Part shown: positions 18,812 through 52,860 of the stretch, piece by piece | Layout: each line of letters starts with the position of its first letter | Position numbering within the stretch: the stretch's first letter is position 1 | Source of the DNA: Desulfofundulus salinus | Lineage (GTDB): Bacteria; Bacillota; Desulfotomaculia; Desulfotomaculales; Desulfovirgulaceae | Length of the DNA stretch: 64,000 nt | Direction of reading: 5' to 3' | Assembly: GCF_003627965.1 (NCBI RefSeq) | Contig: NZ_RBWE01000001.1 | Span: 2,517,420 to 2,581,419, forward strand | The notes under the pieces: model-generated | What the model was told of the DNA's origin: nothing | Seen by the model: the letters and a program-made list of their open reading frames with translations, nothing else | Database searches by the model: none | Translations under genes and position numbers: made by a program

Positions 18812-18908
18812 TGGAGGGGAGAGGTCGGAATCGAACCGGACTCCCACCTGGGTTGCAGGCAGGCCGACGGGTTTGCAGCCCGCGGGAGGCACCAGCCCCG
18901 CTCTCCCC
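18812..18908 (-). tRNA. selenocysteine-tRNA-shaped tRNA-Cys (anticodon GCA) with encoded CCA
   Basis: Reading minus from 18908: an 8-bp acceptor stem (GGGGAGAG with CTCTCCCC), a D arm GGGGC-TGGT-GCCTC with a 4-base loop, a 5-bp anticodon stem with loop CTGCAAA (anticodon GCA at 18876-18874), and a long variable arm of 8 bp with a 5-base loop. The T arm has loop TTCGATT and a stem that needs one bulged C. Discriminator U and CCA follow. The 8-bp acceptor, 4-base D loop and long variable arm are tRNA-Sec traits, but the anticodon and U73 are cysteine identity elements; ordinary tRNA-Cys has a 7-bp acceptor and short variable loop. Such selC-like tRNA-Cys species have been described in bacteria; their role is not settled. 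The nearest same-strand gene is the QueG-like Fe-S protein 174 bp upstream; arsC converges on it. Confidence 0.85.
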
Positions 18909-44440: not shown

Positions 44441-45715
44441 TCACTGCTGAAAATACTCCGACACCAGCCGCAGAGCGCATTCGTCGCCGCAGGCGCTGCA
44501 CAGTTCCTCTTTTCCTTTCTCAAGGTAACAGCGCACCAGGGCCGGGTCGATGGCCAGGCCGGCCACGGCCTCCCGGTCCAGGGAAGCCCGGGTCCGGGCC
44601 ATTTTTAAATCCCACTCCCAGGCCCCCTTGACGCCCTTGGCAATGTCGGCGACATGGGCGGCAATGCGGGCAGCCATCACCCCAACCCGCACATCTTCTT
44701 CCGTGGGCAGGCCCAGGTGCTCCGCCGGGGTGACGTAGCAGATGAAGTCCGCCCCGGAAGCCCCGGCCAGGGCGCCGCCGATGGCCGCGGTGATATGATC
44801 GTACCCCGGGGCCACATCAATGGCCAGGGTGCCCAGGACAAAATACGGGGCCTGGTGGCAGAGCTGCTTCTGCAGGAGCATGGTGGTTTCCACATGGTGT
44901 ATGGGCACGTGCCCCGGCCCCTCCACCATCACCTGCACCCCCTTTTCCCTGGCCCGGGCCACCAGTTCCCCGGCCACCAGCAGGCCCTGAATCTGGGCGC
45001 CGTCCAGGGAATCGGCAATGCACCCGGGGCGGATGGCATCGCCCAGACTCAAGGTGACGTCGTACTCCCGCAGGATGTCCAGCACCCGGTCGAACTCCTC
45101 GTAGAGGGGATTTTCCTTCCTGTTGTGCAGCATCCAGCCGGTGAGGAAGGCGCCGCCCCGGCTCACGATGTCCGTCACCCGTCCGGTTTTCTGCAGGCGC
45201 TCGACCACTTCAAAATTCAGGGCACAGTGAATGGCCATAAAATCAATGCCCGCGGCGGCCTGCTTTTCTATGGCTTCAAACATGTCCTCCGGAGTCATGG
45301 CCACAATGCCGCCCCTCTTCTCGATGGCCTCAATGCCCGCCTGGTAGATGGGCACGCTTCCCACGGGAACCGTGGCCCTTTCCAGGCTAACGCGGCGCAT
45401 GCCGTCGATATCCCCCCCGGTGGAGAGGTCCATAATGGCATCGGCCCCGGCGGAAATGGCCACCTCGATCTTGCGGGCCTCCATTTCCGGGTCGTCCCGG
45501 TCGCTGGAGGTGCCGATGAGGGCATTCACCTTGGTCCGCAGGCCCCGACCGATGGCGCAGGGCCGGATTCCTTTCCGCAACCTGTTCTTCGGGATGACGA
45601 TGGTACCGGCGGCCACCCCGGCCCGGATAAATTCCGGATCCACTCCCTCCCGCCGGGCCACCTCCTCCATCTCCGGCGTGACGCGGCCTTCCCTGGCCGC
45701 CAACAACTGGGTCAT
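44441..45715 (-). CDS. bzaB: ThiC-like hydroxybenzimidazole synthase subunit BzaB
   Basis: A 424-residue ThiC paralogue. ThiC-type segments include IVIPKNRLRKGIRPCAIGRG, GADAIMDLSTGGD, FMAIHCALNFE, EGPGHVPIHHVETTM and DVAPGYDHITAAIGGALAG. The C-terminal radical SAM cysteines read CSACGDEC, i.e. CX2CX3C rather than the CX2CX4C of thiamine ThiC. With BzaA it should convert aminoimidazole ribotide to 5-hydroxybenzimidazole. It begins 3 bp after bzaA stops. Tandem ThiC copies under a cobalamin riboswitch point away from thiamine synthesis. Confidence 0.88.
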   Translation of the reverse strand: MTQLLAAREGRVTPEMEEVARREGVDPEFIRAGVAAGTIVIPKNRLRKGIRPCAIGRGLRTKVNALIGTSSDRDDPEMEARKIEVAISAGADAIMDLSTGGDIDGMRRVSLERATVPVGSVPIYQAGIEAIEKRGGIVAMTPEDMFEAIEKQAAAGIDFMAIHCALNFEVVERLQKTGRVTDIVSRGGAFLTGWMLHNRKENPLYEEFDRVLDILREYDVTLSLGDAIRPGCIADSLDGAQIQGLLVAGELVARAREKGVQVMVEGPGHVPIHHVETTMLLQKQLCHQAPYFVLGTLAIDVAPGYDHITAAIGGALAGASGADFICYVTPAEHLGLPTEEDVRVGVMAARIAAHVADIAKGVKGAWEWDLKMARTRASLDREAVAGLAIDPALVRCYLEKGKEELCSACGDECALRLVSEYFQQ

Positions 45716-45718
45716 AAC

Positions 45719-47017
45719 CTAACACACCCCCTGCTCTTTGCCCAGGTATTCCCCTACCACCTGCATGGCGCAGTACCTGCCGCACATGGCACATGCCCGG
45801 TGAGAACCGTGGCTGCGCTCCCGGCGAAGGGCACCGGCCCGGCGGGAATCTAGGGCCAGTTCGATTTGCCTGTCCCAGTCCAGGGCCTTGCGTGCCCGGG
45901 ACATTTCCAGGTCCCACTGCGCCGCCCGGGGCTCCCTGGCCACGTCGGCTGCATGGGCGGCAATGCGGGCGGCAATGACCCCTTCCCGCACCTGCTCCAC
46001 ACCGGGCAGTCCCAGGTGCTCCGCGGCAGTGACATAACAGAGAAACTCCGCCCCGGCCCAGGCCGAAAGCGCCCCGCCGATGGCCGCCGTAATATGGTCG
46101 TATCCCGGAGCGATATCCGTAACCACCGGGCCGAAGACAAAATAGGGCGCGCCGTGGCAGAGCTGCTTTTCCAGCTGCACGGTGGCCTTCAGGTGCCCCA
46201 GGGGGACGTGCCCCGGCCCTTTGACCATCACCTGCACCTGCTGCTTCCGGGCCCGGGCCACCAGTTCCCCCAGCACCACCAGCTCCTGCACCTGGGCCGC
46301 GTCCAGGGAGTCGGCCAGGCAGCCTGGACGCCACCCATCGGCCAGGCTCAAGGTAACATCGTAGCGGCGGCAGATCTCCAGCAGCCGGTCGAAATGCTCG
46401 TAAAGGGGATTCTCCTGCTGGTTGTAAATCATCCAGCCCATTAAGTGGCTGCCCCCATGACTGACCAGGTAATCGACGCGGCGGTGCTTTCTGGCCGCCC
46501 GCAGGGTCTGCCAGGTGGTGGCGCAGTGCAGGGCCAGAAAATCCACCCCGTCGGCGGCCTGCCGCTCGATAACTTCGAACATTTCGTCCACCTTCATTTT
46601 TACCGCCGCCCCGTACTTCTCCCGGGCCTCGGCAAGGGCCTGGTACACGGGCAGGGTACCCACGGGCGTGGTCGTTGCCGCCAGCACGGCCCGCCGGGCA
46701 CCGTCAATATCCCCGCACACACTCAAATCCATAATGGCATCAGTGCCGGCTTCCACGGCCGCCCGTACTTTAGCGACCTCGCCCTCGATGGTGTCCCCTT
46801 CCGCCGCCAGGCCCACACTGGCGCTTACCTTCACGGCAAAGCCCGTTCCGATGCCCACGGGATCGATGTTCTTTCTCGCGCGGTTGCGGGGTATGACGAT
46901 GGTGCCTTGAGCCACTCCCCGGCGAACGAACTCCGGATCCACCCCCTCCCGCCCGGCCACCCTTTTCATTTCCGGGGTAATCTCACCGGCCAGGGCCCTG
47001 GCCATTTGCGTTGGCAT
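45719..47017 (-). CDS. bzaA: ThiC-like hydroxybenzimidazole synthase subunit BzaA
   Basis: A 432-residue ThiC paralogue, first gene of the operon. It shows IVIPRNRARKNIDPVGIGTG, GTDAIMDLSVCGD, FLALHCATTWQ, KGPGHVPLGHLKATV and DIAPGYDHITAAIGGALSA, and a C-terminal CAMCGRYC cluster site (CX2CX3C). It is clearly paralogous to the next gene, yet differs at many positions, as BzaA and BzaB do in Moorella and Eubacterium. ATG 47017 has GGAGGTG. A riboswitch and terminator lie immediately upstream. Confidence 0.88.
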   Translation of the reverse strand: MPTQMARALAGEITPEMKRVAGREGVDPEFVRRGVAQGTIVIPRNRARKNIDPVGIGTGFAVKVSASVGLAAEGDTIEGEVAKVRAAVEAGTDAIMDLSVCGDIDGARRAVLAATTTPVGTLPVYQALAEAREKYGAAVKMKVDEMFEVIERQAADGVDFLALHCATTWQTLRAARKHRRVDYLVSHGGSHLMGWMIYNQQENPLYEHFDRLLEICRRYDVTLSLADGWRPGCLADSLDAAQVQELVVLGELVARARKQQVQVMVKGPGHVPLGHLKATVQLEKQLCHGAPYFVFGPVVTDIAPGYDHITAAIGGALSAWAGAEFLCYVTAAEHLGLPGVEQVREGVIAARIAAHAADVAREPRAAQWDLEMSRARKALDWDRQIELALDSRRAGALRRERSHGSHRACAMCGRYCAMQVVGEYLGKEQGVC

Positions 47018-47085: not shown

Positions 47086-47136
47086 CCATCATCCTCCGCG
47101 CACGGCCGCCCTTTCGCGCGAGAGCAGCCATTCTCT

Positions 47137-47308
47137 CAAACAGGCAGGTCTCCTGGCTAACGGATCATCGCTTTTTATCCCGGCCTTCCCGGCCAAACCC
47201 CAGTGACCGGGATAAGCTCCCCGACTACAGTGGCGGGACCGCGCCGTTTCCGGGTGGTATGCCACCCGTCCGGACTTCCCTATTCTCCCCCTGCGGGGCA
47301 CCTGTTTG
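47137..47308 (-). promoter_or_regulatory. cobalamin (B12) riboswitch
   Basis: Minus strand starts AACAGGTGCCC, passes through GGGAAGTCCGG, GGCGCGGTCCCGCCACTGTA and ends with the B12-box-like GTTAGCCAGGAGACCTGCC, the invariant landmarks of the cobalamin aptamer. The closing helix pairs AACAGGT with ACCTGCCTGTT. It controls the five-gene bza operon through the attenuator downstream. No thiamine (TPP) aptamer is present, an argument against thiamine function of the ThiC-like genes. Confidence 0.95.
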
Positions 47309-47383
47309 ACTATTCAGTTATTGTTTATATGGGATTCTACCACACCGGCCCGGCAACGTCAAGCAAAATTTGGAACGGTTATT

Positions 47384-48142
47384 TTATTTTTTGACTACCG
47401 GGTTGGCCAGCCGGCCGATGCCGGATATAACCACCTCTACCGTGTCCCCCGGCTGCACCGGCCCCACCCCTGCAGGCGTACCGGTAAGGATGATATCCCC
47501 GGGCAAAAGGGTCATGATGCGGGAGATAAAACTGACCAGCCGGTATACCGGAAAGATCAACTGGGACGTGGAGGAATGCTGTTTTCGCTCCCCGTTGAGG
47601 TAGAGCGAAACTTCCCTGTCTCCCGGGTCGACGCCGGTGACGATGTAGGGACCCAGGGGCAGGAAGGTGTCAAACGACTTGGCCCGGGTCCACTGCCCGT
47701 CCTTTTTCTGGAGGTCCCGGGCGGTAACGTCGTTGGCACAGGTATAGCCCAGTATGTACCCGGCCGCTTCTTCCTCCCGCACCTGCCGCGCCTTTTTCCC
47801 GATCACCACCGCCAGTTCGGCCTCGTAGTCCACCTGATGGCTCATGGCCGGGTAAACAATGGGTTCCCCGGGGCCGATCACGGCGGTGGACGGCTTCAGG
47901 AACAGGACCGGCTCATCCGGCAGGGCCATACCCAGCTCCAGGGCGTGGTCCCGGTAATTGAGCCCCACACACACCGCCTTGGTGGGCAGGCAGGGAGCCA
48001 GCAGGTCCAGCTCCGGCAGGGCGAACTGCCGCCCGGATACCGGTTCCAAAGATTGAAAGGGATCGGCCACCGGTAAAACCGTGTCACCTTCAACTATGCC
48101 GTAGAAAATTTCTCCCCTGTGATGAAAACGACCAATACGCAT
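47384..48142 (-). CDS. fumarylacetoacetate hydrolase (FAH)-family protein
   Basis: A 252-residue enzyme of the FAH superfamily, which cleaves or isomerises or decarboxylates 2-oxo/ene-diol acids using a divalent metal. Visible are AVCVGLNYRDHALELG, the metal-ligand region YEAELAVVIGKKAR, FLPLGPYIVTGVD and LLPGDIILTGTPAGVGP. ATG 48142 begins the N-terminal MRIGRFHHRG. It is a single-gene unit upstream of the riboswitch, same strand, and not obviously part of the bza pathway. Substrate unknown. Confidence 0.85.
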   Translation of the reverse strand: MRIGRFHHRGEIFYGIVEGDTVLPVADPFQSLEPVSGRQFALPELDLLAPCLPTKAVCVGLNYRDHALELGMALPDEPVLFLKPSTAVIGPGEPIVYPAMSHQVDYEAELAVVIGKKARQVREEEAAGYILGYTCANDVTARDLQKKDGQWTRAKSFDTFLPLGPYIVTGVDPGDREVSLYLNGERKQHSSTSQLIFPVYRLVSFISRIMTLLPGDIILTGTPAGVGPVQPGDTVEVVISGIGRLANPVVKK

Positions 48143-48202: not shown

Positions 48203-48973
48203 TTACACATTTGGGGGTGAATACAGGGGCTTTTGCGCCCGGATGAAGGCGCTGACCAGGGCACCTTCATAGAGGGCCAGCTGCTGTTTCATTTCCTCCG
48301 GCAAAGTTCCTTCCGGGAAGTCCGATGGGCTGAAGACCCGGATTACCTCTATGGATACCCCGGTGAAACCGGCCGCTTCCAGCAGGCGGCGGTACTCTTC
48401 TTCCGTCGGGGCGCCGGCCACGCAGCCCGCCCACAGCTCGACATCTTGCCGCAGCCCGTGGGGTACCTCACGACGCCACACCATGTCGGAAACGGCCAGG
48501 CGCCCGCCGGGTTTGAGCACCCGGAAGGCTTCCCGGAGCACCCTGCTTTTGTCCGCGGCCAGATTGATCACACAGTTGGAGATGACCACGTCCACATGAT
48601 TGTCGGCCTGCGCCTCTTCCAGGGTGTTGGCGGCAAACAATTCCTCCATGATGCCGTCCAGCACTTCCAGGCTGGTCATCTCCCGGACTTCCTGCTGCAG
48701 GCCGGCGGATGCATCACCGAACCTCCTCCTGAGGTATTTGCAGATGGCGTCCTGTTTTGCTTCAACCTTGCCCCTGGCCTCGCCTTCGGCCCTGCCTTTA
48801 ATTAACCCGCGCATCTCTGCCTGCTGCTGCATCTCTTCAAGGGCTATTTCCAGGTTCGTAATCATCTTTTCCACCCGATGTCTGCTTCTTTCTCGCTGAA
48901 GTCCTGCAGGATGTAGGACTTCTCCACTTATTGGCAGGGCATTACTTGACAATAGATGTGTAATGTGTAACAA
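48203..48973 (-). pseudogene. chimera: DUF4351/Rpn fragment joined in frame to the C-terminal half of ArsM
   Basis: The downstream ~134 codons (48203-48607) read [36 protein letters not shown] and [15 protein letters not shown], typical of arsenite methyltransferase ArsM after its SAM-binding half. The upstream part (48606-48973) is a DUF4351-type tail ([22 protein letters not shown]) nearly identical to 51428-51798. The match ends exactly where ArsM sequence begins. Both the SAM-binding region and catalytic N-terminal cysteines of ArsM are missing, so methylation activity is unlikely. If translated, ATG 48865 is the probable start. Confidence 0.8.
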
Positions 48974-48974
48974 T
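48606..48974 (-). repeat. 370-bp duplication, copy A
   Basis: About 96% identical to 51428-51798 in the same orientation. Both copies share the DUF4351 coding tail and a leader with the hairpin GAAGTCCT/AGGACTTC and the words ATTGTTACACATTACACATC. Copy A is joined to arsM, copy B to unrelated sequence. Confidence 0.88.
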
Positions 48975-48981
48975 GATTCAG

Positions 48982-49992
48982 TTACTTCACGGCATCGTCG
49001 ATCACGGAACCCGCCTCTTCCAGCGAGCCGGCGGTATAAATCCTGTTGATGATCTTGTCCAGGGCCTCCAGCCTGTCGATCTGCCTGACCCGCTCCTGCA
49101 GGTCCCGTGAGGCCTCCCCAAACCTGGCGTCAAGGTACTTGCAGATGGCTTCCTGGGCCATCGTGACTTTGCCCTTGGCCTCGCCCTCGGCTCTGGCGCC
49201 GGCCAGGGCGGAAATCTCATCCCGCATGGCCTTCTCCCTCAGCTCGTAGAGCCTGCGTTCCTTCTTGCTCTGCCAGAAGGCTTTCTCGATGGTCAACGCT
49301 TTCCTGATCCCCGGGTTCTCCATGGCTATCGCCTCCATCTCTTCTCCTTCCAGGTTGCTCAGGTACATCATCCACGCCTCCAGCGCATCCTTCGGCCTGC
49401 GTTTGATCGTCTTTATCTTCTCCAGCTCCAGAAAGTGGATCTCCAGGTCGTCGCACAACAGCTCACCGCTCTCATCGTCCCGCACGTGGAAGGCCCGGTG
49501 GTACCGCCCGTCACCCCGGAACCAGTCAAAGGCCAGAATGTTTATGGTCACGGTTTTGCGCAGGTCGGCGAACTTCTGACCGCTGGTCAGCTGCCCGTGG
49601 TACAGCCCCGCCCAGTAGTACATGGTCCGCTTGTCAATGTTGTACTGGTTGGTCACCTGGACTTCGATGTTGATGAGCGTGCCTTCTTTCGTACGGGCCA
49701 GGACGTCCAGCCTGGCGCCGCGGTCCAGCAGGTATCTTGGGTCTATCTCCCGGTCCAGCAGTTCCACGCCGGTCAGTTCCCGGCCGGACGGTAACTTCAG
49801 TACCGCGTTGAGAAAACTCAGCAGCGCCTCTTTCCCTTCTTCCGACCCGAAGATCCGCTTAAAGGCGTAGTCGTTGGTCCGGTTGATCCCCCTGATCTCC
49901 GCCAATCCCCCCACCCCCGCCCCGTTTATTCTTGTCAACCTTATTATACCAGATTCTGCGCGCGAGCCAAAATCTGAAACCGTCAATTCCAT
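48982..49992 (-). CDS. Rpn-family nuclease / putative transposase (PD-(D/E)XK, DUF4351)
   Basis: A 336-residue protein of the recombination-promoting nuclease family. [26 protein letters not shown] opens the nuclease domain, [19 protein letters not shown] supplies the D...E-X-Q/K active-site strand near residue 100, and the last ~90 residues form the DUF4351-like tail ([20 protein letters not shown]). ATG 49992 follows GGCAGGAAG; upstream open codons are less likely. Divergent from the related gene at 50075. Such proteins are often mobile or phage-defence linked. Confidence 0.82.
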
Positions 49993-50014
49993 CTTCCTGC
50001 CGCCGCCCGCGGCA

Positions 50015-50023
50015 TGATATAAT
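50015..50023 (+). promoter_or_regulatory. extended -10 promoter for the 50075 gene
   Basis: TGATATAAT in the 82-bp gap between two divergent Rpn-type genes. The minus strand of the same gap contains TATACT and could serve the other gene. Confidence 0.5.
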
Positions 50024-50074
50024 AGATATAGTATACACACAAGATTTAATTGCCTGCCGTTGAGAGGACTGGGA

Positions 50075-51031
50075 TTGTTGGCCGTTAATGTCATTGACCG
50101 AAGCCTCAAGGCTTTGGCCCGCCGTTACCCGAAACCCTTTGTCAAACTTGTCCTGGGCTCCACAAAAGGGGTGGCAGTGGCCACCATCGAAAACCCGGAG
50201 ATCAACCTCCCGGAAAGGCGGCTCGATTTCGTCTACGGCCTGCGCCTGGATGACCAGGAGTACCTGCTGCACCTCGAATTCCAGCTCCAGCACGAGACCG
50301 ACCTGCCGGAACGGATGTTCACTTACAACGCGCTCCTGACCGCCGCCTACCGGCGACCGGCCATCTCGGCAGTCATTTACCTGGCGCGGCAGGAATACCG
50401 CCGTTTACCCGAAGCCTATGCCGTGACCTTCCGGAGCAGGGCGGTCCACACCTTCACCTACCGGGTCATCAGGCTCTGGGAATACGAAGAAGCCATTGCC
50501 GGCGGCGAGCTGAAGGAGCTCGCTCCCCTGCTCGTCCTGCTGGCCGAAAACGGTAAAGAAGAAGCTGCCCTGGCCAGAACTAGAGAACTGGTCCTGGCCA
50601 TCGGCGACGAGAAGCACCGGGCCGATGCCCTGTCGGTGGCTATCACCGTGGCGGCGCGCTACTTCAGTCGCGATTTTTTGCTCGAGTTTTTCAAGGGGGA
50701 AATGGAGATGCTGCAGGAAGCCAGTATTGTCCAGGAATGGATAAACGAAGGCCTGGAGAGAGGCCGAAAAGAAGGCCTGGCGGAAGGCCTGGAAAAGGGC
50801 CTGGCGGAAGGCCTGGAAAAGGGCAGGAAGGCGGGAAAGCTCGAGGGAGAGATCGAGACGCTGCAAAGGGACATCCAGGAAGTCCTGGAGGAACGCTTCG
50901 GCCGAGTCAAAAAAGGTATGGGCAAGAAGCTGGCCGCCATTGACGACCCGGCGGTGCTCCGTTCCCTGCTCAAGAAAAGCGTCAGGGTGAAGAGCCTCGA
51001 AGAGTTCGCCCGGCTCCTGGAAGAAGTGTAA
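50075..51031 (+). CDS. Rpn/YadD-type nuclease-like protein with DUF4351 tail
   Basis: A ~318-residue relative of the Rpn family. PD-(D/E)XK-like features are RRLDFVYGLRLDDQEYLLHLEFQLQHE near residues 50-75. Residues ~215-260 contain a tandem repeat GLAEGLEKGLAEGLEKG within a charged helix, then a tail QEVLEERFGRVKKGM. TTG 50075 follows GAGAGG; an earlier TTG at 50060 is possible. It lies head-to-head with a second Rpn gene. Function in recombination or defence is family-level. Confidence 0.75.
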   Translation: MLAVNVIDRSLKALARRYPKPFVKLVLGSTKGVAVATIENPEINLPERRLDFVYGLRLDDQEYLLHLEFQLQHETDLPERMFTYNALLTAAYRRPAISAVIYLARQEYRRLPEAYAVTFRSRAVHTFTYRVIRLWEYEEAIAGGELKELAPLLVLLAENGKEEAALARTRELVLAIGDEKHRADALSVAITVAARYFSRDFLLEFFKGEMEMLQEASIVQEWINEGLERGRKEGLAEGLEKGLAEGLEKGRKAGKLEGEIETLQRDIQEVLEERFGRVKKGMGKKLAAIDDPAVLRSLLKKSVRVKSLEEFARLLEEV

Positions 51032-51427
51032 CGTCCGGAGACAAGGTAAAGCCCTACCGGTGGCCTGCGGAGGAGCTTTCGGCTGGGGCCTGGCTCGAAA
51101 ATAGTTGAAGCCATTCGCTTCGGGTCCGCATTACTTCGCCCTCCGGCGTGTCAAAATCCCTAATGCTCGGGGTGCCCAAATGCCGCGGAATCATGGCCTA
51201 AAGCAATGTCATTTATCCAGCCAAAGGGGAAGCCGGTAGGGTCTTTTATAACCAATCCTAACTGGTTCCGTCCGGTGAGGTTCCAGGACGCAGTTCTATA
51301 ACTTCTTACATCGATTCCTAATAAAATCCCCGCAAGCCTTATAACATGCGGGCTGCGGGGATGAGCTCTCCCTGCAATTATGTCGTTTCCCTCACTGCAT
51401 AAACCTCTCCATGCCGTCCCTGATGAT
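51032..51427. other. gene-free stretch with a terminator
   Basis: No convincing gene. A minus-strand frame from about 51387 to 51160 reads somewhat protein-like (TASWNLTGRNQLGLVIKDP) but has no start or ribosome site and spans the terminator at 51323-51362. Confidence 0.45.
51323..51362 (-). terminator. terminator downstream of the truncated Rpn fragment
   Basis: Minus-strand ATCCCCGCAGCC pairs with GGCTTGCGGGGAT, then TTTATT. Confidence 0.75.
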
Positions 51428-51766
51428 GGCCTGCGCCTCTTCCAGGGTGTTGGCGGCAAACAATTCCTCCATCACGCCGTCCAGCACTTCCAGGCTGGTC
51501 ATCTCCCGGACCTTCCGCTGCAGGCCGGCGGATGCATCACCAAACCTCCTCCTGAGGTACTTGCAGATGGCGTCCTGCTTTGCTTCAACCTTACCCCTGG
51601 CCTCGCCTTCAGCCCTGCCTTTAATTAACCCGCGCATCTCTGCCTGCTGCTGCATCTCTTCAAGGGTTATTTCCAGGTTCGTAATCATCTTTTCCACCCG
51701 ATGTCTGCTTCTTTCTCGCTGAAGTCCTGCAGAATGTAGGACTTCTCCACTTATTGGCAGTGGCAT
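51392..51766 (-). pseudogene. truncated DUF4351/Rpn fragment (copy B)
   Basis: At most 124 codons; the likely start ATG 51688 gives 98 residues beginning MITNLEITLEEMQQQ. It contains only the C-terminal DUF4351-like tail, with no nuclease core, and ends [19 protein letters not shown]. That ending is probably the original one, lost in copy A where ArsM sequence takes over. Confidence 0.75.
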
Positions 51767-51798
51767 TACTTGACAATAGATGTGTAATGTGTAACAAT
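51428..51798 (-). repeat. 370-bp duplication, copy B
   Basis: Partner of 48606-48974, about 2.8 kb apart and in direct orientation. Recombination between them would delete or amplify the two Rpn genes. Confidence 0.88.
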
Positions 51799-51835: not shown

Positions 51836-52069
51836 ATGAGGCGCATGCAGGTGGTAGTGGAAGAGTGGCAGTACCAGTTCCTGCGTGAACTGGCCTCCCG
51901 GCAGGGCTGCTCCATATCAGCCGTTTTACGGGAACTCATTACCAGCAAGGCAAATAAAAGCGGACAAAACGCAAAGGAACCTCTTCTCGAAGCAGCAGGG
52001 ATCGCCCGTGAGCCATTACTCAAAAACTTGATCAGCGAAAGTTTAGATGAAGCTCTTTACAGGACGTGA
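51836..52069 (+). CDS. vapB: ribbon-helix-helix antitoxin (VapB-type)
   Basis: A 77-residue DNA-binding antitoxin: MQVVVEEWQYQFLRELASRQ and ISAVLRELITSK give the strand-helix-helix pattern. AAGGTGATG precedes ATG 51836. The PIN toxin gene begins one base after its stop codon. It probably represses its own promoter, which lies in the leader after duplication copy B. Confidence 0.82.
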   Translation: MRRMQVVVEEWQYQFLRELASRQGCSISAVLRELITSKANKSGQNAKEPLLEAAGIAREPLLKNLISESLDEALYRT

Positions 52070-52070
52070 T

Positions 52071-52499
52071 ATGTTGCGGCAGATTTTCGTGGATACCAGC
52101 TTTTTTTACGCCCACGCCTACGCAGACGACCCCCATCATCGTGAAGCGGTCCAGTTCCTGGAGAACCCCCCGGTTCCTCTTGTGACGACGAATTTTATTT
52201 TTGATGAATTGATGACCATCCTGCGATATAATTTTGGTCACCGCGTGGCGGTTACATATGGGCAGAGCCTGCGAAAAAGTAAACTTGTAGATATTTTACG
52301 CATAACGCCGGAAGACGAAGAGTCGGCGTGGGAAATCTTTTCCAGGTACAGCGATCAGAAATTCAGTTTTACGGACTGTACGAGTTTTGCACTTATGCGA
52401 CGCCTGGGAATCACCGAAGCAGCGGCATTCGACATTCATTTCGAAGTTGCGGGTTTTCTGCGCCTGCCTCCCGCCTCCCTTGCCAGCCGCGGGCGGTAG
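52071..52499 (+). CDS. vapC: PIN-domain toxin (VapC-type ribonuclease)
   Basis: A 142-residue PIN-domain protein. Acidic active-site residues appear in IFVDTSFFYAHAY, FIFDELMTIL and FTDCTSFALM with a final AAFDIHFEVAGF. Start ATG 52071 was preferred over the ATG eight codons up since it abuts the antitoxin stop and gives the usual N-terminus. Characterised VapC toxins cut tRNA or rRNA; the target here is unknown. Confidence 0.87.
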   Translation: MLRQIFVDTSFFYAHAYADDPHHREAVQFLENPPVPLVTTNFIFDELMTILRYNFGHRVAVTYGQSLRKSKLVDILRITPEDEESAWEIFSRYSDQKFSFTDCTSFALMRRLGITEAAAFDIHFEVAGFLRLPPASLASRGR

Positions 52500-52860
52500 G
52501 GACTTTTGCTTTCCAGCATGAAGGCGATCGCGGAAAGATACTTCCTGGTTTTTTGCGTGCCACTTTTAGGGGTCCCATGGTCTGGAAGTGAGCTCAGCCG
52601 CTTTATTGGTATGTCTATCCTGGGCATTTACGTTCGCTCACCCTTTGTTCGCTCACCCTTTTCTAGATAACTCGTAAGATCCCCACCAGCCTTTAAAAAA
52701 TTAGCTTATCTCCCTTTCTGAATTATACCACACGGAACGGATGCCGGGGTGGTCCCGCCGGCGCGGGACCTGGGCTCGATAAGTTAATAAGTTAAGTGCC
52801 TGGCACCATCTATCAAAAAGGCCCCCGGGAGATTTTACATCTCCCGAAGGCCCTGCGGGA
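52500..52860. other. 361-bp intergenic region
   Basis: Contains a short tandem duplication of TTCGCTCACCCTTT near 52632-52662 and the SLH-gene terminator at 52815-52854. No gene is seen. Confidence 0.5.
52815..52854 (-). terminator. strong terminator after the first SLH gene
   Basis: Minus-strand GGCCTTCGGGAGAT pairs with ATCTCCCGGGGGCC, followed by TTTTTG. Confidence 0.9.

Follow-up and report, generated by a model that had tools for sequence, protein, structure and literature searches.

Organization of the locus

The locus lies within a 64,000-nt stretch of the Desulfofundulus salinus genome (contig NZ_RBWE01000001.1), which is referred to as the window and whose numbering is used throughout; its features are listed in Table 1. 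Six genomes of the genus (G000 to G005) form the comparison set, of which G000 is the genome studied. At the center of the locus is a chimeric open reading frame (ORF) in which the tail of an Rpn protein is followed by the C-terminal part of an arsenite methyltransferase (ArsM). Its translation contains no internal stop, in line with a preliminary description of this DNA that had noted an open frame running intact over a join at about 48606.

Table 1. Features of the chimeric ORF and its neighbors, in window coordinates
Feature	Position	Strand	Remarks
FAA-hydrolase family gene, anchor beside arsM-derived DNA	47384..48142	(-)	
Chimeric open reading frame	48203..48973	(-)	256 residues from TTG 48973; 220 from ATG 48865
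arsM remnant, C-terminal 133 residues and stop	48203..48604	(-)	chimera residues 124-256
Join, 2-bp microhomology GG common to arsM and rpn tail	48605..48606		
Rpn C-terminal tail (DUF4351-like, RpnS-type), native frame	48605..48865	(-)	chimera residues 37-123
Transposase_31-type rpn 5' region	48876..48927	(-)	52 nt, out of frame in the chimera
Copy of the promoter-like DNA that precedes the RHH-PIN pair	48938..48974	(+)	37 nt identical to 51762-51798
rpn1, PDDEXK_2 Rpn nuclease gene	48982..50109	(-)	directly upstream of the chimera, same strand
rpn2-like gene	50060..51031	(+)	weak DUF2887/Rpn matches; 4-residue repeats in tail
Second tail copy: complete standalone RpnS-like tail, scar and promoter-like piece	51392..51798	(-)	

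The upstream part had been named an Rpn/DUF4351 tail. This name is correct for residues 37 to 123, which are a tail read in its native frame, but not for residues 1 to 36, which are an out-of-frame reading of the 52-nt rpn 5' region and of promoter-like DNA. Because these 36 residues are not native Rpn sequence, the ATG at 48863-48865 is a likelier start than the TTG; the sequence ahead of this ATG includes GGGTGG. The 52-nt piece is 98% identical at the DNA level to part of a Transposase_31-type rpn gene of G001 (L044 5063-5114). It is also common to 51699-51750 in the second tail copy and to an orphan tail of G001, and it appears to be the scar of an older internal deletion. Two points had escaped the preliminary description: the 5' part would itself have been made by this older deletion, and it corresponds to a standalone RpnS-like (antitoxin-type) ORF, not an Rpn nuclease.

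The join and the second tail copy

Homology to arsM reaches 48606 and homology to the tail begins at 48605; the two have GG in common, and the break is placed at 48604/48605. As had been observed earlier, the join stands where similarity to the copy at 51428 stops. Positions 48605-48904 and 51428-51727 form a direct repeat (96% identity) that extends to 48974 and 51798, respectively, and ends at 48605 and 51428, exactly where the arsM part begins. Aligned over its full length of approximately 370 bp, the repeat has 371 columns, 96.5% identity, 12 mismatches, and one gap. The second copy encodes 98 residues from the ATG at 51688 to a stop at 51392, and 51428-51798 is the portion repeated in the chimera. 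A search of the whole genome with the tail DNA gave three matches, namely, both copies and, at 69%, the diverged rpn1 tail, and found no full-length gene with the chimera's tail type.

The exact coincidence of the join with the end of a 96% repeat raises the question of whether the 370-bp repeat caused arsM and the rpn tail to be joined wrongly during assembly. We consider such an artifact very improbable, given the 12 differing positions and one gap that distinguish the repeat copies and the failure to find the 5' half of arsM elsewhere in the G000 assembly, which is rated 99.98% complete in 10 contigs. Moreover, the other end of the repeat, 48974/48975, is common to G001, and the sister assemblies carry different arsM truncations.

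The arsM remnant

The intact 277-residue ArsM of the congener G002, which scores 307.9 bits against the NF008823 profile (cut-off, 263), was used as the reference. The chimera scores 144.5 bits, which is under the cut-off, and aligns to positions 143-269 of the 272 in the profile only. Its arsM part begins at residue 138 of the G002 protein; 137 of the 277 residues are gone, and the SAM-binding half (G002 residues 1-137) is absent, which bears out the earlier statement that the methyltransferase had lost this half. The glycine-rich SAM motif presumably sits in the lost half. The equivalents of Cys174 and Cys224 (CmArsM numbering) are kept as chimera residues 134 and 184 (alignment, counted by hand), and the equivalent of Cys72 falls in the lost half. 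According to the CmArsM study (PMC3877260), Cys174 and Cys224 bind arsenic and are needed in both steps, and Cys72 is needed for the first methylation. Since it has neither a SAM site nor a Cys72 equivalent, the product of the chimera is predicted to lack methyltransferase activity. Compared with the ArsM/AS3MT arsenite S-adenosylmethionine methyltransferases (PDB accession numbers 4FR0, 5EVJ, and 8XT7), the chimera matches the C-terminal 133 residues, including the Cys174 and Cys224 equivalents, but is without the SAM-binding half and the Cys72 equivalent.

No second arsM was found in the G000 genome. The G002 ArsM query gave 10 matches, of which the chimera is 72% identical and the other nine, at 30-43% identity, are taken as other methyltransferases. 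A search of the genome with the NF008823 model gave 12 matches, with the chimera as the best and none over the cut-off.

The tail compared with RpnS-type small proteins

The Pfam family PF14261 (gathering score, 25) matches the chimera with 22.8 bits (E = 9.5e-5) and the second copy with 23.8 bits (E = 4.7e-5). The chimera's tail type is only 47% identical to the tail of the neighboring rpn1. The internal ATG of full-length rpn relatives is the one found at 48865. Eleven tail copies, drawn from 14 that begin with the internal Met, were printed and judged by sequence only: GGGAGGTGG precedes the internal ATG in eight of them, and ATCGGGTGG precedes it in the three orphan copies, in which the older deletion ends right at the pre-ATG site. 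The pre-ATG sequence of the chimera is weaker than the GGGAGGTGG of the full-length genes.

Zhong et al. 2023 (PMC10327210) describe antitoxin-like RpnS proteins that correspond to the C-terminal tails of Rpn proteins and are produced on their own, in some cases from dedicated genes annotated DUF4351; they also report that the number of 4-residue repeats in Rpn varies and that rpn arrays appear to expand through tandem duplication. By sequence, the tail ATG lies at the internal translation site of rpn, as expected of an RpnS small protein. As in the standalone RpnS described there (DUF4351, PF14261; e.g., ypaA/rpnES behind rpnE in E. coli), the tail is a separate ORF with a conserved internal start, which in the full-length relatives inspected is preceded by the Shine-Dalgarno-like GGGAGGTGG; it also has a variable number of 4-residue repeats, lies behind an rpn gene, and belongs to an array with tandem duplication and variable ends. 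Unlike RpnS genes, the copy at 48605-48865 has lost its last 11 residues and continues into ArsM.

Across 19 aligned tails, the 4-residue repeats vary in number within the long first helix. They start near residue 24, slightly past the 8-20 given by Zhong et al. 2023 (PMC10327210). For the complete tail at 51395-51688, the predicted structure (mean pLDDT, 88) consists of a long helix (residues 4-62) and two short ones (66-76 and 82-97). The chimera retains residues 1-87 of the 98 tail residues and is missing the complete C terminus; according to the model, the lost residues 88-98 would make up most of the third helix (82-97). A fold search with the complete tail gave no significant match, RpnAS (7TH0) being absent among the 50 matches listed, and a sequence-profile search found no significant relative in the PDB (best E = 0.2).

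Variation is also seen in other rpn tails. In the rpn2 tail (50740-50840), the number of GLAEGLEK repeats differs from that of the G001 copies, which fits the published repeat variation of Rpn. Nearly the same tail (93-95% DNA identity to the window) is carried by the rpn genes at L048 8519-9427 and L044 4141-4752 and by the one at L044 4919-6001. The N-terminal parts of these genes belong to two families between which BLASTP shows no meaningful similarity (E = 0.034), a pattern that suggests the shuffling of rpn tails between N-terminal types.

Breakpoints in the sister genomes

DNA derived from arsM adjoins the same FAA-hydrolase gene in five of the six congeneric genomes, G000 included. In window coordinates, the arsM stretch reaches 48604 in G000, 48315 in G001, 48293 in G004 and G005, and 48218 in G003, where the leftover is the last 16 bp only; there are thus four distinct breakpoints among five genomes. 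In G002, the match beside the FAA-hydrolase gene stops before the arsM-derived stretch. A check of close genomes for an intact arsM at this site, as the preliminary description had proposed, found none: four congeners have remnants, and the only full-length arsM among the six genomes is that of G002, which is located on another contig behind a MarR-family gene. Full-length arsM was not found in G000, G001, G003, G004, or G005. The DNA joined to the remnant also differs, i.e., the rpn tail in G000, the middle of an rpn2 copy in G001, a GTGCCTGGCAC-type repeat in G004 and G005, both of which have the same 10-bp deletion, and the region before RHH-PIN in G003.

Compared with G001, G000 has kept more of arsM and less of the array, and the truncations would therefore be separate events or separate late steps. 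The tail of G001 (L044 11491-11877) carries the same internal scar but is an unfused complete ORF with the normal end IIRDGMERFMQ, and it adjoins rpn1 at the 48974/48975 boundary that is also found in G000. The simplest reading of these sequences is that the duplication preceded the split of G000 and G001 and that the fusion followed it. The dating by the shared boundary is not firm because the array DNA may have moved. Between G000 and G001, dS is 0.104 for the FAA-hydrolase gene and 0.186 and 0.226 for two ThiC-like genes, as against 0.015-0.07 for rpn1 and rpn2 and 0.196 for the orphan tail. Since the values for rpn1 and rpn2 are below those of the flanking genes (0.104-0.226), an exchange of array DNA between lineages or species is possible. 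The tree of the FAA-hydrolase gene was poorly resolved.

The differing breakpoints can also be read stepwise, as a variant of separate deletions: arsM would have been inactivated once in the common ancestor by an upstream lesion and trimmed later, the fusion being one late trimming step. We hold this course of events possible but somewhat doubtful. It agrees with the absence of the 5' side in all five genomes that have arsM-derived DNA here and with the join and 10-bp deletion common to G004 and G005, but the G000 remnant retains a third-position bias, and deletion alone cannot have turned either of G000 and G001 into the other. Six genomes do not suffice to distinguish separate losses from stepwise erosion that followed a single initial lesion.

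Search for the fusion in other genomes

Among 113 genomes of the class, six have a match at E <= 1e-45, and G000 alone covers both parts; at this threshold, the two parts of the fusion were found together in none of the 112 other genomes. A second search covered 60 genomes, including G000, of which 53 have matches; these figures rest on the matches listed. Eight of the listed matches outside G000 cross the join (starting at or before residue 74 and reaching at least residue 137), and none of the eight, each of which was read, is the fusion. Two of them, in G035 and G013, are complete methyltransferases that carry no rpn tail. The others are six rpn genes (one each in G048, G004, G039, and G021 and two in G058) that have their own normal stops and no ArsM-like sequence beyond. 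Matches that start at approximately residues 96-117 are ArsM-type, and the rows read one by one were the eight that cross the join. The exact join sequence was not found in viral contigs.

A tail match in G008 (L050) that ends in LEEA was considered as a second chimera and was rejected, as its sequence reads as the same tail interrupted by a frameshift. The only PADLOC match (mad2, E = 8e-7) was to the methyltransferase region of the chimera; the other six proteins had none. In the PHROGs search, the chimera had three weak methyltransferase matches and rpn1 had a transposase match, whereas the two remaining proteins had no match.

Substitution pattern, predicted structure, and expression

Under simulated random substitution, the arsM part remained open in 59% of trials at 5% divergence and in 36% at 10%; the corresponding values for the 220-codon fusion were 39% and 16%. 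Differences between the arsM sequences of G000 and G002 were assigned to lineages with three outgroups, which left 11 unassigned. At codon positions 1, 2, and 3, the G000 lineage has 4, 5, and 12 differences (21 in total) and the G002 lineage has 13, 7, and 18 (38 in total); the arsM part of G000 shows no excess of amino acid change. This pattern indicates constraint over most of the branch, which would fit a recent break and is also compatible with selection. By NG86 counts, the dN/dS ratio between the arsM part and G002 is 0.27; for the tails, it is 0.18 between copies 1 and 2 and 0.09 between copy 2 and the G001 orphan. A reading of these ratios as selection on the fusion was rejected because most of the arsM path is probably older than the break and because rpn tails may exchange sequence; the LQQEV of copy 1 is found again in other tail copies.

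The structure model of the chimera is confident, with a mean pLDDT of 88 and a pTM of 0.63. In a fold search, it matched ArsM structures best (E = 1.9e-6; TM by query of 0.39-0.44 over the first 11 rows). The confidence of the model is of little value for judging whether the protein would be stable with half of ArsM gone, since the input alignment supplied homologues for each half.

On the minus strand, there is no promoter-like site directly before the chimera, the nearest (49970-49943) being before rpn1, and no terminator-like site between the end of rpn1 (48982) and 48865, so read-through from rpn1 is possible. The native ATG follows the end of rpn1 by 116 nt, on the same strand, and the chimera may be cotranscribed with rpn1 and have its translation initiated at the internal start; promoter- and terminator-like sites are about as numerous as in shuffled sequence, which makes this reading of expression suggestive only.

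These features bear on whether the fusion is a functional new protein, in which an RpnS-like oligomerization domain (87 residues) and the ArsM C-terminal domain with its two arsenic-binding cysteines are translated behind rpn1 and act as an Rpn antitoxin variant or an arsenite-binding protein. The open frame, the native ATG with GGGTGG upstream, the position behind rpn1 with no intervening terminator-like site, the third-position bias, the confident model, and the retention of both cysteines that CmArsM needs in both steps are in its favor. We nevertheless regard it as improbable: the fusion was found in one genome only, both domains are truncated, with the tail cut inside the predicted third helix, the pre-ATG sequence is weaker than the GGGAGGTGG of the full-length genes, a complete second tail copy is present at 51395-51688, and recency accounts for the substitution pattern. 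It is very unlikely that translation of the chimera begins at the RpnS internal start and that the RpnS part of the product still binds Rpn, with the cysteine-bearing ArsM-derived domain grafted on. If true, this would be a natural domain swap on an antitoxin-type oligomerization module, which could give an arsenite-sensing or altered-specificity antitoxin.

Origin of the chimera

The chimera is most likely an incidental product of a deletion inside a tandem rpn array and is probably a young pseudogene. The earlier proposal that recombination joined the two parts stands, and the congeners suggest its direction, namely, a deletion in the rpn array beside the FAA-hydrolase gene. The comparison supports an ancestral state in which arsM would have been next to the FAA-hydrolase gene with the rpn array on its 5' side. 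The array would have held a standalone RpnS-like ORF behind rpn1, which an earlier internal deletion would have made by sparing the tail and its internal start. One deletion at a 2-bp microhomology in the G000 lineage would have taken the last 11 codons of the RpnS-like ORF, all of the intervening DNA, and the first 137 codons of arsM, and the remainders would have been joined in frame by a one-in-three chance. In the sister species, other deletions would have trimmed arsM from the same side to other points.

A random join of two undecayed frames has a chance of about one in three of keeping the frame open; because of this chance and because the chimera is young, the open frame is weak evidence of function. 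A new protein and simple decay had initially been left side by side. Decay is favored because the breakpoints differ in the sister genomes and the fusion was found in no other genome searched, and the new protein is disfavored; the fusion is most likely an incidental chimeric pseudogene that reflects ordinary gene decay.

Chimeric pseudogenes made by deletion at repeat arrays have microhomology joins, truncation of both partners, and breakpoints that vary among sister genomes. The chimera has the same microhomology join, double truncation, and differing sister breakpoints; unlike such pseudogenes, it is in frame and still open. The chimera adds a further example of gene decay by deletion at an rpn array and is new as an individual case only. 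Its value is that of a small natural record, in which arsM is cut to different points beside one anchor gene in congeners. The rpn tails, with their internal start, survive as independent ORFs, in agreement with published work in which rpn arrays expand by tandem duplication and RpnS may be encoded by its own gene.

Other features around the locus

In G001, rpn1 is interrupted by a DDE transposase gene (550 aa; L044 8663/10570, corresponding to window positions 49856-49863), with 8 bp repeated on both sides as expected of an IS insertion. The ORF at 51836-52499, which is RHH-like by eye (no Pfam match), overlaps a PIN-domain gene, and the two are a probable toxin-antitoxin pair; its promoter-like region is the one duplicated at 48938-48974. 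A short repeat with AAGTTAAGTGCCTGGCAC at 52775-52807 recurs across the genus, including at the arsM breakpoint of G004 and G005, and G002 has a Y1_Tnp transposase gene near it. This repeat is REP-like and possibly involved in rearrangement. On the other side of the locus, a cobalamin riboswitch (47126-47320, minus strand, 90.5 bits) precedes two tandem ThiC-like genes (45719-47017 and 44441-45715), the second of which is over the BzaB cut-off (776 versus 700 bits) and the first of which scores 606; the pair is probably a B12 lower-ligand (bza) operon. A selenocysteine tRNA is located at 18816-18908 on the minus strand (51.1 bits).
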